Source of the DNA: Bryobacterales bacterium
GTDB taxonomy: Bacteria; Acidobacteriota; Terriglobia; Bryobacterales; Bryobacteraceae
Reading direction: 5' to 3'
Assembly: GCA_003169195.1 (NCBI GenBank)
Contig: PMQB01000422.1
Location: forward strand, 1,772 to 48,814
Length of the DNA stretch: 47,043 nucleotides
The position numbers and the translations under genes are program-made. Shown in pieces: positions 3,479 through 32,098 of this stretch. The notes under the pieces were generated by a model. It did not search any database. It worked only from the letters and a program-made list of their open reading frames with translations, and was not told where the DNA came from. Every line of letters begins with the position of its first letter. Within the stretch, counting starts at the first letter, position 1.

Positions 3479-4288
3479 TCAGCGACGCCGCCAAACAGCG
3501 GGGCGGCGTTCCGGGAGAGTAAAGCCTTCCAATAACGTGGGTGAGACTTTGGCAAAGAAAAACTGCACAATCCACGGAGAGGTGGCCCACGGGTTTGTGA
3601 TGGCGTTTTGCAATCCGTCGAGCGTCAATTGATGTGGCTCCTCCACCCGCCAGGAACCAGTCACGGTGACGGTTTCGAAAGAGTTCGGACGGAGAGTAAG
3701 GCCTTGAAATCGGCCTATGGGCGCAAGCGCTATGTCTAGATCCCACGATCCCCAAGCGTCCTCCATGTGTCCTTGCCACGCTCCGTCCATCAGCGGTGCA
3801 AGCGCTACCTGTGGGGCGACCGGCGGCGCGAATGTCAGTTTGCGTGTTAACGGATCATTACCGAGTTTGATGGCGCCTCCAGAGTGACGGATGGTTTCCA
3901 TGAGTTGCGCACAAGCATTTAGAAACGGTTGTTCTACAAAGTCAATGCACTGTACAGACTGAAAACGACCAATGGGAACGCCGCGCCGCGCGAACAGAAT
4001 GGGGATGATTCTCTTTTGGTTTTTCTCCGCAAGCTGCAGCTCCTGAGCCACCATTTCCGAGCCAACAGAGCTCTGTGAAACGATAACTACCACTGCAGCA
4101 CAATCAGCAATCGCGCGGCTGATGTTCTGCCACCATTGCTCGCCCGCGGGTAGCTGGTTGCGATCAACCCATGTGGTGAAGCCAGCCTCCTGGAGTGCGT
4201 TCGAGACTTGATCGGCGAACTGGACATCTGCGCGTGCGTAGCTGATGAAGATGGAAGTCTTAGGGAGGAAAGGGCGTGCTGGCAACAT
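3479..4288 (-). CDS. TIR-domain protein with C-terminal uncharacterised domain
   Basis: A 269-aa protein with an N-terminal TIR domain (about residues 11-135): IFISYARAD at 13-21, then SQSSVGSEMVAQEL, where Glu83 aligns with the glutamate that makes many bacterial TIR domains NAD-cleaving enzymes. The remaining 130 residues are rich in Trp, Gly and predicted beta strands (GAWQGHMEDAWGSWDLDI, VTVTGSWRVEEPHQLTL) and match no family I recognise; they could be a ligand sensor. There is no signal peptide or membrane segment. It is convergent with the PQQ dehydrogenase, with 11 bp between stops. Bacterial TIR proteins act in anti-phage defence or signalling; no partner effector or sensor gene is evident next door. 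No good ribosome site precedes the ATG. Confidence 0.8.
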   Translation of the reverse strand: MLPARPFLPKTSIFISYARADVQFADQVSNALQEAGFTTWVDRNQLPAGEQWWQNISRAIADCAAVVVIVSQSSVGSEMVAQELQLAEKNQKRIIPILFARRGVPIGRFQSVQCIDFVEQPFLNACAQLMETIRHSGGAIKLGNDPLTRKLTFAPPVAPQVALAPLMDGAWQGHMEDAWGSWDLDIALAPIGRFQGLTLRPNSFETVTVTGSWRVEEPHQLTLDGLQNAITNPWATSPWIVQFFFAKVSPTLLEGFTLPERRPAVWRRR

Positions 4289-13166: not shown

Positions 13167-14615
13167 TTAAGCGAATACTTCTGAGAACGTCTCGTCAGAA
13201 ATGAGACGCTCCGTGGCGGTGTTTGCATGTCGGAAGCGAACCACCATCAAGGTGCGGTCATCCGCTGGAATCGCCGCGCTGGCAAACGAAGCTACCTTGT
13301 TCATGATCCGGTCGCAAACTTCAGACGGTGCGGCGCTGGCGGTATCGGAAACCAAGTCGCAAATGCGCTTTTCTCCAAACTCTTCGTCGATTTGATTGGT
13401 GGCTTCGTTGATGCCGTCGGAGTAGAGGATGAGCGTGTCACCTGCGTTAATTTCGACGGTGCGCGCGGAGTAATCGGTGGTGGGAAAAAGCCCAAGAACG
13501 AGGCCGCCGCCATCCAATCGCTGGATGCGATTCGGGTCGCCGGCGTGAACAAGCATGGGCGCCGCGTGGCCACAGTTCACATAGCGCAGCGTACTAGTAG
13601 CAGGATCAAAGACAGCCCAGAATAATGTGGCGAAGCGCTCACAGGCTGTTCGCTCGCACAGCATTCGATTAATGCGTTCGCATGCCTGTTCATGCTCCGA
13701 TACCATTGATGAACGAATGGCGCCCTGCAACACATTCACCAATAGCGCCGCAGGCACTCCTTTGCCGGAAACATCCCCTAACACCATGGCAATCTTGCCG
13801 TCCTGGGCTTCAAAGATGTCGTAGAAGTCACCACCCACGTGGTCGGCTGCGATGGCCGCTGCTCCGAATTCGAAATGTGGCGAACGTAACTGCGGTTTCG
13901 GCTGCAGATCGTTCTGAACTCGCTTGGCCAGTTGCAACTCGCTCTCAAGATAACGTCCGCGGAGATAGTGTGGCGCGCGGAGCGCAATGACAGCGAGTGA
14001 TAACAAGAGAGCGATAGAGGCGATCACGCCCACAATGAGATTCTGACGTAGGCCGTCAAATGCGCCGGTAACCGCCGTTAAAGGAAGGGCCACCTCAACT
14101 ATGAATCCAGGAGGACGATGCGCTGCGCCGAGCGGCGGTCCGGAGAACGCAGGCCTTTCAATGGGTCGCGACGGACGCGGTAAGCGAAATGGGATCATTG
14201 CGATGAAAGCTTTGCCGCGCGCTGTATCCGCCACTCGTCCGAGGCTTTCATGTTTCTCCACTCGCTCCCACCATTGCGCCGGAATGTTGACGGTTCCCTC
14301 GGGATGACCACCTTGTGCGAGAACGTGACCATCAGCAGTAAGCACGCGGACCCATAAAACACGATCTCCCGAAGACTCCAAGGCGTGTTCGATGACGGGA
14401 GCAAGCGCATGCGGTTCATTTATGCCGGCACTGCGGGCTGCCGTGGTCAGCGCGCCTACCTGTCGCTCCGCTTCGCGTTCCGCCTGCTGGGGAACAAGCA
14501 CCGCGCCGGTATACATGTAAGTCCGCACACTTTGGACACAGAGCACAGCGGCAACCAATGCTCCAACTCCGAGCACGAGTCGAAACCTAAATCGAGAATA
14601 CTTATGTAGCTTCAC
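13167..14615 (-). CDS. Membrane PP2C/SpoIIE-type serine phosphatase (RsbU-like)
   Basis: A 482-aa membrane-bound protein phosphatase. Two membrane helices (about residues 11-31 and 193-212) bracket a 160-aa periplasmic sensor region, and the cytoplasmic part is a PP2C-type SpoIIE catalytic domain. Metal-binding aspartates are visible in DHVGGDFYDIFE, LGDVSGKGVPAALL, LYSDGINEATN and PADDRTLMVV. Such enzymes dephosphorylate anti-anti-sigma (STAS) proteins to free a sigma factor. It lies 24 bp upstream of DUF3500 and HupE and may head that operon. A STAS/anti-sigma pair is encoded 17 kb away at 31.3-32.1 kb; a link is only possible. Confidence 0.88.
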   Translation of the reverse strand: MKLHKYSRFRFRLVLGVGALVAAVLCVQSVRTYMYTGAVLVPQQAEREAERQVGALTTAARSAGINEPHALAPVIEHALESSGDRVLWVRVLTADGHVLAQGGHPEGTVNIPAQWWERVEKHESLGRVADTARGKAFIAMIPFRLPRPSRPIERPAFSGPPLGAAHRPPGFIVEVALPLTAVTGAFDGLRQNLIVGVIASIALLLSLAVIALRAPHYLRGRYLESELQLAKRVQNDLQPKPQLRSPHFEFGAAAIAADHVGGDFYDIFEAQDGKIAMVLGDVSGKGVPAALLVNVLQGAIRSSMVSEHEQACERINRMLCERTACERFATLFWAVFDPATSTLRYVNCGHAAPMLVHAGDPNRIQRLDGGGLVLGLFPTTDYSARTVEINAGDTLILYSDGINEATNQIDEEFGEKRICDLVSDTASAAPSEVCDRIMNKVASFASAAIPADDRTLMVVRFRHANTATERLISDETFSEVFA

Positions 14616-29948: not shown

Positions 29949-30027
29949 GGGTCAAATGACCCTCTGCCATGCGTTCTTTCGAGCACGCCGCTGTTTCCTC
30001 ACTCTCACTGTGATGCAATACCTCACA
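29949..30027. promoter_or_regulatory. Two dyads upstream of the small membrane-protein gene
   Basis: GGGTCA-AA-TGACCC (29949-29962) is a perfect 14-bp palindrome of operator type. TGTGA-N9-TCACA (30009-30027) resembles a CRP/FNR half-site pair, but the 9-nt spacer is wrong for those proteins, which want 6 and 4. Both lie in the 176-bp gap before the 53-aa gene. No other gene is seen between 29899 and 30074. Confidence 0.35.
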
Positions 30028-30074
30028 GCCAACATGGTGCTTTAGGTGCTACCAGGAAAGAGAGTGAGGTCGCC

Positions 30075-30236
30075 ATGACGTTAAACCATATTGATCCGCA
30101 CCGCAACCCATCGAAACTGGATGATCCCGCGGCCGAACCGGTGCACGCCGGTACAGTATATGTCCTGCTCGCGATCTGTTATGTGCTTATCGCAGCTACT
30201 ATGTACATCATCTGGCAGAAGGCCGAAACCGGCTGA
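30075..30236 (+). CDS. Small single-span membrane protein
   Basis: A 53-aa ORF with a ribosome site (GTGAGG) 7 bp upstream of its ATG. A 26-residue polar N-terminus (NHIDPHRNPSKLDDP) leads to one clear membrane helix, TVYVLLAICYVLIAATMYII, and a short WQKAETG end. The arrangement of a short polar start, one helix and a charged end recalls the tiny subunit IIa of haem-copper oxidases, but no oxidase genes are near, so this is only a resemblance. It precedes the haemoglobin-ankyrin gene by 33 bp and may be co-transcribed. Confidence 0.55.
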   Translation: MTLNHIDPHRNPSKLDDPAAEPVHAGTVYVLLAICYVLIAATMYIIWQKAETG

Positions 30237-30269
30237 TCATCTGCGGCGGGAGTACAATCTGGCCTAGGG

Positions 30270-31289
30270 ATGGGTCATTTCCTGGTAGCGCTAGGCGGTG
30301 AGGCCGGTTGCAATCGGCTGTCTGCGGAATTTTATGCACGCGTCGCCAAAGATCCACGTCTTCGTCCATTATTCCCTGGCAAAAGCCTACGCTGCGCTAC
30401 CGAGGAGTTCGCCGCTTTCCTGATTCAGTTTCTAGGTGGCGACGAAGAACAAACCCAACATCGCTGGTGGCTGAGCCTGCGCGAATCGCATGCGCGTTTC
30501 CGCATTAGCCTCGTCCAGCGAAGCGCTTGGTTGGAGCACATGCAGGCTACCCTGGAAGCGGCTCCGGTTGCTGAGGAGACGCGTCAGGCCCTTCGTCAGT
30601 TCTTCTTGCAGAGTTCCGCTTATGTCGTAGGAAACGAGTCTTCCGAACCGGAGCAAGCGGAACTAGCGGCCCGCTGGGCTGAACAGAGAGCTTTAGATGA
30701 CGTCGTCAGCGCCATCGTCCTCGTCCGTGATCTGGACGTCCTCGCCTGGGCACCGCAATTCTCTTCACGTCCATCGGTTTTCATTGGGCTGCTCGCACGC
30801 ATGGCTCAGTCTGGCCGCCAAGCGCTGGTTCGCTTCGTGATGGATTCCCTTAAACGGGACCCCTCCCTCGCGGCGCACCATTTTTCCGGAAAAACGCTTC
30901 TCCATTTCGCAGCGGGTGCAGGCTCCCTCGACGTGGTGGCCGCGTTGCTCCAACTCGGCACGGACCCGAATACGCAGGACCGCGGAGGCCACACACCGCT
31001 CTACTGTGTAGCGAACCAGTGCGCGTCAGAAACAGGTCCACAGGTAGTCCGCGCGTTGATTGGGGCTGCTGCTGACGTGAATGCATGTGGCGGGGTCACA
31101 CATGCCACTGCCCTGCACATGGCGGCCAGGCGAGGATATCTCGAGATCGCCCGAGTGTTACTCGATTGCGGCGCAGCTATTAACGCAAAAGATAACAAGG
31201 GCGTTACGCCGCTGCAGCGAGCCCTGAATTGCCGCCGCAATGATGTCGCCCAATTGCTGCTGGACCGTGGCGCCAAGCGAACCGCCTAA
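30270..31289 (+). CDS. Truncated haemoglobin fused to ankyrin repeats
   Basis: A 339-aa two-part protein. Residues 5-97 match group II truncated haemoglobins: the LGGEAGCNRLSAEFYARV start with Tyr22 at the B10 position, DPRLRPLFPG, FLIQFLGG, proximal His74 in LRESHARFRI and Trp87 in QRSAWLEHM at G8. After a linker of about 100 residues, four ankyrin repeats follow (from about 204), such as GKTLLHFAAGAGSLDVVAAL and VTPLQRALNCRRNDVAQLLL. The haem domain probably senses or binds O2 or NO and the repeats dock a partner. Its stop abuts the stop of the convergent anti-sigma-factor gene with no spacer. Confidence 0.83.
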   Translation: MGHFLVALGGEAGCNRLSAEFYARVAKDPRLRPLFPGKSLRCATEEFAAFLIQFLGGDEEQTQHRWWLSLRESHARFRISLVQRSAWLEHMQATLEAAPVAEETRQALRQFFLQSSAYVVGNESSEPEQAELAARWAEQRALDDVVSAIVLVRDLDVLAWAPQFSSRPSVFIGLLARMAQSGRQALVRFVMDSLKRDPSLAAHHFSGKTLLHFAAGAGSLDVVAALLQLGTDPNTQDRGGHTPLYCVANQCASETGPQVVRALIGAAADVNACGGVTHATALHMAARRGYLEIARVLLDCGAAINAKDNKGVTPLQRALNCRRNDVAQLLLDRGAKRTA

Positions 31290-31736
31290 CTACTCCCGCT
31301 CTTTCAACCTCTTTACCATCCGAACATGCGTTCCATGCGGCGGATTCTGCTCTACGCTGAACTCATCCATAATCGCTTTCGCCATTGCAATACCCCGGCC
31401 TGACAATCGCTCCCGATTCTCATATGACCGCGGGTCGGGCACGGCGTCCAGTTGAAAGCCCTCCCCCTCATCTAGCACTTCAATGGTCAAACGGCCGTGC
31501 ACCAATGACAACTGCAGAGTGACTTTCTTATTCAAGTCGAAGCGATTACCGTGAACGATGGCGTTGATGAGAATTTCGCGCGCGGCGAGACCCAGAAAAT
31601 AAAGATCCTCGTCTCCGAAACCTCCCTGCTGGGCGAAGGAACGCACCGATGCCTCGGCGGCATCTACGGCTTCGACTCGCGACTCTATTGTCGTTGAAAC
31701 GGACAGCTTGGACTCCACGCCAGCAGCTCTTTTCAC
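31290..31736 (-). CDS. RsbW-like anti-sigma factor / serine kinase
   Basis: A GHKL-type ATPase of about 148 aa that would hold a sigma factor and phosphorylate the STAS protein encoded just before it. The N box is AAREILINAIVHGN, the G1 region is VLDEGEGFQ and the G2 region is LSGRGIAMAKAIMDEF. The longer open frame upstream is antisense-like overlap with the STAS gene; GTG 31736, with AGGG just before it and 5 bp after the STAS stop, is the best start, and GTG 31712 is possible. No sigma factor gene is in the window. Confidence 0.85.
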   Translation of the reverse strand: MKRAAGVESKLSVSTTIESRVEAVDAAEASVRSFAQQGGFGDEDLYFLGLAAREILINAIVHGNRFDLNKKVTLQLSLVHGRLTIEVLDEGEGFQLDAVPDPRSYENRERLSGRGIAMAKAIMDEFSVEQNPPHGTHVRMVKRLKERE

Positions 31737-31741
31737 CTGCC

Positions 31742-32098
31742 CTACGCGTGCGCCGAGATGGACGCAACTGCTTCGTCCCGCGTTGTGCTGATCGGCAGTA
31801 CGCCATCCAGTCCAACCATCTTCAAAGTGGCAAGAACCTTGTCCGCAATACCCGCCAACCGAAACTGGCCACCGGCGTTTTTTACCAAAGCCGAACACTT
31901 CACCAGAACGCCCATCCCTGAGCTGTCGAGATAGCTGATCTTCGACATGTCGACAATGATCTTGTTCTGATTATTTTTTGTTAGCTCCTCAATCGTCCAT
32001 TCCAACTTCTGCAAAAGATTGCCCATGGTCATCGTGCCCGACAGGGCCAGGACCAGAATTCCAGAATCCAACGTGATTTGCTCGGTATCGAACGGCAT
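31742..32098 (-). CDS. STAS anti-anti-sigma factor (RsbV-like)
   Basis: A 118-aa STAS-domain protein. The key segment MSKISYLDSSGMGVLV carries the conserved serine (Ser59/Ser60) phosphorylated in RsbV and SpoIIAA. ATG 32098 has a GAGGAAC ribosome site; the longer frame upstream runs antisense into the GH38 gene and is not real. It heads a two-gene operon with the anti-sigma kinase, forming a partner-switching module that sequesters or frees an alternative sigma factor. The PP2C phosphatase at 13.2-14.6 kb is one possible reset enzyme. Confidence 0.9.
   Translation of the reverse strand: MPFDTEQITLDSGILVLALSGTMTMGNLLQKLEWTIEELTKNNQNKIIVDMSKISYLDSSGMGVLVKCSALVKNAGGQFRLAGIADKVLATLKMVGLDGVLPISTTRDEAVASISAHA

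Follow-up and report, generated by a model that had tools for sequence, protein, structure and literature searches.

What does a truncated haemoglobin do when it is permanently joined to a protein-docking domain, and does the pair of sigma-control genes beside it belong to the same system? Both questions are raised by a 47,043-nucleotide stretch of DNA from a Bryobacterales bacterium (assembly GCA_003169195.1, contig PMQB01000422.1; hereafter the window), which encodes a 339-residue fusion of a group II truncated haemoglobin (trHb) and ankyrin repeats next to an RsbV/RsbW-like gene pair. The reading that we favour, at somewhat less than an even chance, is that the fusion is an autonomous haem-linked switch with one conserved partner docked to its ankyrin half. 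The fusion gene and the parts of its product are as follows.

30270-31289, plus strand: truncated haemoglobin (group II)-ankyrin fusion, 339 amino acids (aa), based on the open reading frame (ORF), Pfam, an AlphaFold2 model and family members.
30288-30599, plus strand: globin domain, residues 7-110, based on Pfam PF01152, alignment to solved trHb chains and a globin-only model that matches 5d1v, 2bmm and 1ngk.
Sites within the globin: Tyr22 (B10), Phe35 (CD1), Cys42, Ala43 (E7), His74 (F8) and Trp87 (G8).
30657-30878, plus strand: helical linker or N-terminal cap, residues 130-203, with model helices at residues 130-150, 154-164, 168-181 and 184-196.
30879-31277, plus strand: four ankyrin repeats, residues 204-336, based on Pfam, structural superposition and conservation across aligned rows.
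Conserved strip of the ankyrin half: Asn249, Arg287, Arg288, Arg317, Asn320 and Cys321.

The two-part architecture was examined at the level of domains and structure. Pfam matched Bac_globin (PF01152) at residues 7-110 (E 3.3e-17, 63.3 bits against a cut-off of 21) and Ank over four stretches (E 4.8e-24). No further domain exceeded the Pfam cut-off, FAD/NAD, kinase, cyclase and MCP domains included, no STAS domain was found at E values up to 1, and no export signal was seen by eye. A full-length AlphaFold2 model built from nine homologues had a mean predicted local confidence score (pLDDT) of 87.9, and its residues 206-336 superposed on the designed four-repeat ankyrin 4ANK (1n0r) with a Z of 23.2 and a root-mean-square deviation of 1.4 over 126 aligned residues (VIA-align). 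By both the Pfam matches and this superposition the C-terminal half consists of tandem helix-turn-helix repeats of about 33 residues, and the first-pass annotation, made from the letters of the DNA alone, was right to describe four ankyrin repeats joined to a globin.

That globin had been assigned to group II of the trHbs on the strength of Tyr22, His74 and Trp87, an assignment with which the comparison to solved structures agrees. The best matches of the first 135 residues were the group II trHbs 5d1v and 2bmm, then 4uzv and 1ngk. Because the VIA-align rows of the full-length model cover mainly residues 166-336 and say little about the globin, a globin-only model was made (pLDDT 77.6), and its seven best Protein Data Bank matches in Foldseek were all group II trHbs. 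In a phmmer alignment with the trHbs of Chloroflexus aurantiacus and Thermobifida fusca and with HbO of Mycobacterium tuberculosis, Tyr22, His74 and Trp87 fall on TyrB10, HisF8 and TrpG8.

Conservation was assessed in an alignment of 45 rows, the window included, obtained from 49 loci by leaving out four that are frame-broken or cut (L009, L086, L094 and L102). His74 and Trp87 are present in all 45 rows and Tyr22 in 44, the remaining row carrying His instead. Phe35 is found in 43 rows (Tyr in the other two) and Cys42 in 44. Among 12 compared stretches, the lowest mean entropy was that of residues 65-77 (0.61 bits); the values were 0.79 bits for residues 35-57, 1.36 and 1.80 for two other globin stretches, 1.19-1.53 for the ankyrin stretches and 2.0-2.9 within residues 121-203. 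The fusions also differ from stand-alone trHbs at the same positions. The 13 stand-alone rows (12 distinct, since L061 equals L109), which were drawn from matches of the order and phylum searches and hence are close to the fusions, carry Tyr at position 35, Gly at 42 and the motif RGHPRLRxRH, whereas the fusions have mostly Phe35 (PheCD1), Cys42 and a sequence of the type RWWLSLRESH, with Ser in place of the Arg at position 73. The genome of the window encodes a stand-alone globin as well (L017), which lies outside the 13 compared rows. With regard to group membership, the fusion has the Bac_globin profile, the 2/2 fold and the combination of HisF8, TyrB10 and TrpG8, and it lacks the RGHPRLRxRH motif of the EF loop and F helix; judged by sequence, the replaced motif marks a subfamily and is not a strict exclusion from group II.

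In the ankyrin half, Arg317 is invariant, Asn249 and Cys321 are kept in 44 of 45 rows, and Arg287, Arg288, Asn320 and also His241 in 43. Of these, Asn249, Arg287, Arg288, Asn320 and Cys321 occupy inner-helix positions 13 and 14 in repeats 2-4. The exception is position 14 of the second repeat, which is Gln250 in the window but Glu in most rows and is more variable. Positions 13 and 14 of an ankyrin repeat are normally free to vary, as in designed ankyrins. The strip is kept in both deep clades of the family (16 and 29 rows), and its conservation suggests one partner.

How widely the fusion occurs, and whether its halves travel together, was addressed by three kinds of search. When 84,980 species genomes were scanned for exact peptides, 12 loci were returned. 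Nine of these span the whole fusion with identities of 51-70%, although in L009 the match is split over two frames; of the remaining three, L010 covers residues 5-79 only and L011 and L012 are weak ankyrin-only matches. The nine are labelled Acidobacteria/Acidobacteriales, Eremiobacterota (Vulcanimicrobiota in tree labels), Fimbriimonadaceae (Armatimonadota) and Rhodanobacteraceae, all as metagenome-assembled genomes or bins in which single binning errors are possible. A globin-only profile was run on 257 genomes of the order to which the window belongs, and 40 of them, the window's own included, matched at E 5.3e-30 or better (best 16 candidates scored per genome), separated by a gap from the other globin matches, which were at 1e-22 or worse down to the limit of 1e-18, most of them in short frames. 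In an even sample of 396 genomes across the phylum, the genome of the window was the only one in the fusion range (best 10 candidates per genome). The ankyrin half matched 41 of 237 genomes of the window's family at E 1e-28 or better (best 13 candidates per genome), namely 39 of the 40 found by the globin half together with G411, where a contig end truncates the copy, and with G463, which holds an internally deleted remnant; the copy of G570, also cut by a contig end, was found by its globin half and missed by its ankyrin half.

Within the family searched, globin and ankyrin halves occur together. Carriers in the order number 41 genomes, counting G411 and not G463, with the copy of G632 (L086) frame-broken. 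One more carrier, G451, belongs to a different family of the class. Distribution is patchy: of the 17 genomes that were searched from the genus of the window, two have a copy, and one of these copies is cut. In a tree from which L009 was left out, members from other phyla (L001, L003, L006 and L007) fall inside the 16-row clade that contains the window, with little resolved branching within the clade, and this placement fits lateral transfer. Neither a plasmid match nor a relative on a viral contig was found. The idea that a globin with conserved haem residues is tied to a docking domain also holds across the family, as the two recur as a unit with both halves well conserved. The remnant in G463 (L162) keeps the first ~16 and last ~100 residues and has lost most of the middle; this decay and the frame changes in L009 and L086 reflect either gene loss or assembly errors.

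On the reading as a switch, the fusion would be a free-standing, probably cytoplasmic haem protein. Its globin half would bind haem through His74, and the distal pocket formed by Tyr22 and Trp87 would hold a diatomic ligand or react with nitric oxide (NO) or peroxide; TyrB10 together with TrpG8 predicts a tight hold on the ligand. The ankyrin half would dock one conserved partner through Asn249, Arg287-Arg288, Arg317 and Asn320-Cys321, and the rebuilt proximal loop and F helix (RWWLSLRESH) would relay the state of the haem to the ankyrin half or to the partner. The proximal stretch is both rewritten and strongly conserved, which suggests such a coupling of haem state to a partner.

The first-pass annotation had linked the fusion, by adjacency only, to the sigma-control genes next to it.

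31290-31718, minus strand: RsbW-like anti-sigma/HATPase_c_2 kinase (HATPase_c_2 E 2.9e-24), a neighbour that we do not count as part of the system.
31716-31718, minus strand: likely GTG start of the RsbW-like gene, placed by where homologues begin.
31742-32098, minus strand: RsbV-like STAS anti-anti-sigma factor (STAS E 1.4e-17), likewise a neighbour that we do not count as part of the system.

The pair has the make-up of a partner switch, a STAS protein and a HATPase_c_2 kinase encoded together. Its arrangement had been described correctly, as the genes are convergent and the stop codon of the fusion (31287-31289, plus strand) touches that of the anti-sigma gene (31290-31292, other strand) with zero bases between them. 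The functional link itself was not borne out. Iterative hidden Markov models (HMMs) were run against 3410 ORFs of 60 aa or more at the 49 loci, which span 3-17 kb and in some cases are cut near the gene. Among the 48 loci other than the window, an RsbW/STAS pair was present only at L062 (= G495, on the same contig as L008), and no RsbW or STAS ORF was found at the other 47. At L062 (8486-9364, minus strand of the locus) RsbW, STAS and fusion are co-directional in this order, the pair ending ~100 bp before the fusion; gene order and orientation differ from the window, and the L062 RsbW falls outside the clade of the window's RsbW. The annotation had proposed to check conservation of the neighbourhood and had taken homologues that never neighbour sigma-control genes as fatal to the link. 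The neighbourhood is not conserved (1/48), and with L062 "never" is not literally true, which leaves the link unsupported and not disproved.

Abundance and descent of the RsbW proteins point the same way. Ten genomes hold 25 full-length RsbW-like genes (E below 1e-18), or 2.5 per genome. On the assumption of 2.5 RsbW genes per 7 Mb, and with the window set aside because it was the starting case, one or more RsbW genes would be expected by chance near the 48 other loci with a probability of ~0.17 over all flanks and ~0.046 within 1.5 kb, the latter limit having been set after L062 was seen. Relatives of the window's RsbW (E 1e-15 or better) are present in 234 of the order's 257 genomes, whereas the fusion is present in 41. 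In a tree of 40 RsbW rows, to which the fetched locus L149 contributed no match, the window's RsbW groups with those of G493, G546 and G621 in a clade of four (100/100); these three genomes have RsbV in front of RsbW and no fusion within ~1.5 kb or, as far as the searches reached, anywhere else. On the HMM searches, the RsbW counts, the order-wide search, the tree and the chance estimate, we rejected the sigma-control link as unsupported. The adjacency is probably incidental and the pair are probable bystanders, although there remains a slight chance that the link is real. Elsewhere in the window, 17 kb from the pair, a SpoIIE-type PP2C phosphatase (13167-14615, minus strand; PF07228, E 2.6e-48) whose N-terminal part looks membrane-bound by eye is an RsbU-like candidate.

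Other neighbours were compared by all-against-all BLAST of the ORFs within 6.5 kb of the fusion at the 49 loci and by a Pfam scan of a subset of them, comprising 40 entries (the DinB of L064 twice and three window genes among them) and eight ORFs. Outside the fusion, recurring clusters covered eight, seven and six of the 49 loci, and DUF1501 genes lay near five fusions. The eight-locus cluster consists of protein kinase/TPR-type genes within ~6.5 kb (L065, L068, L077, L082, L095, L096, L062 and L004), divergent from and within 1 kb of the fusion in L068, L077, L095 and L096. Among the eight ORFs of the Pfam scan, seven belong to this cluster and carry a protein kinase in L065, L077, L082, L095 and L096 and only TPR in L062 and L068; the eighth (L100) is a peptidase. 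The six-locus cluster is an FtsX/MacB permease, judged by one member (L071). DUF1501 lies just upstream of the fusion in L090, L098 and L097 (= G475) and within ~5.4 kb in L080 and L095. Background counts, which among the recurrent families cover kinases and DUF1501, gave 31-102 protein kinases per genome (eight genomes) and 7-76 DUF1501 copies per genome (ten genomes). Since both families are this abundant, we regard kinase/TPR and DUF1501 genes as background and not as conserved partners. DinB-type proteins are encoded upstream in the window and in L064; they align poorly with one another, and an HMM built from this pair, a weak test, found no third. A GNAT gene is common to L001 and L003 only. 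The varied neighbours include DinB, AHSA1, DUF1801, GNAT, TetR, LacI, receiver-PilZ, thymidylate kinase, amidohydrolase and others, and in the loci examined a conserved fusion neighbourhood is lacking. At three loci, regulators without a common family (receiver-PilZ, HTH_3 and TetR) are co-directional with the fusion and touch it or lie just downstream (L095:6542-7339, L072:3611-3856 and L088:6172-6834).

What, then, does the fusion do? A gas sensor for RsbV/RsbW, whose ankyrin face would dock RsbW or RsbV so that O2 or NO at the globin releases a sigma factor, is in our judgement very improbable. The adjacency in the window, the co-directional arrangement in L062 and the low chance value within 1.5 kb speak for it, and so do known parallels: RsbR stressosome proteins have a globin-like N-terminus and are linked to partner switching, and a Vibrio stressosome is reported as an oxygen sensor. 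The C-terminal part of RsbR is a STAS domain, which the fusion lacks. Against it stand the 47 loci without such a neighbour, the two adjacent pairs that differ in RsbW clade and gene order, the nearest RsbW relatives in genomes in which no fusion was found, the much wider distribution of RsbW, the post hoc choice of 1.5 kb and the convergent genes of the window, which are not co-transcribed. It is also unlikely that the globin is a structural relic or binds a non-haem ligand while the ankyrin array does the work. The rewritten motif beside His74 with its change from Arg73 to Ser, Phe at CD1 and the one row with His for Tyr22 would fit such a relic, but His74 and Trp87 are invariant, and residues 35-57 and 65-77 have lower entropy than all four ankyrin stretches.

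A haem enzyme on a scaffold is a serious contender, although we doubt it on balance. Here the globin would carry out NO dioxygenation or peroxidation, and the ankyrin array would only hold a reductase, a haem donor or a client. The pocket of TyrB10 and TrpG8 is typical of group II trHbs and fits the redox functions that have been proposed for these group O globins, with a peroxidase case cited (PMC4720485). Ankyrin repeats that work with a haem protein are known from Cj1386 of Campylobacter jejuni, AnkB of Pseudomonas aeruginosa and the ank-katE operon of Leptospira, and catalase activity needs the ankyrin proteins in the first two species (PMC7567364; PMC11442138). In these cases, however, the haem enzyme is a separate catalase, whereas the globin of the fusion is in the same chain, and Cj1386 itself binds haem, so the parallels are analogies. 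Further, no reductase, catalase or haem-synthesis gene was found among the neighbours scanned with Pfam, and the exchange of the stand-alone proximal motif for another, highly conserved one suggests more than catalysis. We place the switch slightly ahead of the scaffolded enzyme because the change is proximal and neither reductase nor catalase lies among the neighbours scanned.

The switch has its own difficulties, which weigh against it as a whole. Haem binding is predicted from conserved residues and fold, and the coupling between the two halves is likewise a conjecture. The model is least reliable at the EF loop (residues 64-68, pLDDT below 50) and for this reason cannot place the signature relative to the haem. 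Conservation of the ankyrin face could instead reflect self-assembly or packing against the globin, and the neighbourhood offers no clue to the partner. Counts of fusion copies, finally, are limited by contig ends and by the number of candidates scored per genome.

Two further features lie upstream of the fusion.

30075-30236, plus strand: 53-aa ORF with one hydrophobic stretch (by eye), an orphan.
29997-30069, plus strand: perfect 10-nucleotide inverted repeat with arms at 29997-30006 and 30060-30069, the 3' arm overlapping the putative ribosome-binding site of this ORF.

A 53-aa membrane protein with palindromes upstream had been described here. The ORF and its hydrophobic stretch exist, whereas the palindromes are at chance level, with eight 10-nucleotide inverted-repeat pairs (~6 distinct) at spacers of up to 80 in the 47 kb window by script count, and the leader folds no better than shuffled sequences (z -1.07). 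The ORF has no family match above cut-off and one marginal match (E 0.009) in 99 other genomes searched, and it shows, as judged from these comparisons, no sign of belonging to the fusion system. The repeat at 29997-30069 could hide the ribosome-binding site of the ORF in RNA, yet repeat density is at chance. No tRNA or Rfam match was found in the window. An ORF at 3479-4288 (minus strand) starts like a TIR domain by eye (FISYARADVQFADQV...).

Compared with characterized proteins, the fusion shares the 2/2 fold, TyrB10, HisF8 and TrpG8 with M. tuberculosis HbO (1ngk) and the trHbs of T. fusca (2bmm) and C. aurantiacus (5d1v) and differs from them in its linker and four ankyrin repeats, Phe at CD1, Cys42 and RWWLSLRESH in place of RGHPRLRMRH. 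An N-terminal globin followed by a C-terminal effector part is also the plan of globin-coupled sensors and flavohaemoglobins, which, apart from one predicted plant 2/2 protein, are the chimeric globins described in a 2006 survey (PMC1457004). Those proteins have 3/3 globins, whereas the fusion has a 2/2 globin and no output domain other than ankyrin above the Pfam cut-off and so is not a globin-coupled sensor. The plant protein, a predicted 693-aa chain of Arabidopsis, resembles the fusion in carrying an N-terminal 2/2 haemoglobin domain in a longer chain, and unlike the fusion it is described there without mention of ankyrin repeats. Among the open papers listed in literature searches, none named a truncated haemoglobin-ankyrin fusion in its title or at the beginning of its abstract, subscription journals lying outside this scope; the word "ankyrin" is absent from PMC4720485 and PMC1457004 and "globin" from PMC3932732. 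The parts are known, and their combination, the signature and the recurrent pairing look new.

In conclusion, a trHb permanently tied to a docking module, as seen in several phyla, offers a handle on trHb targets, since the ankyrin half should capture the partner, and a tempting inference from the neighbourhood is corrected, as the sigma-control pair next to the fusion is a probable bystander. More broadly, the fusions may be single-gene haem switches that spread laterally as a family, in which a trHb with a rebuilt proximal side signals to or acts on a single ankyrin-held client, an idea that we put forward as possible and with more doubt than conviction. If it is true, 2/2 globins, like the 3/3 sensor globins, would act in bacteria as direct two-domain signalling or client-directed redox proteins.

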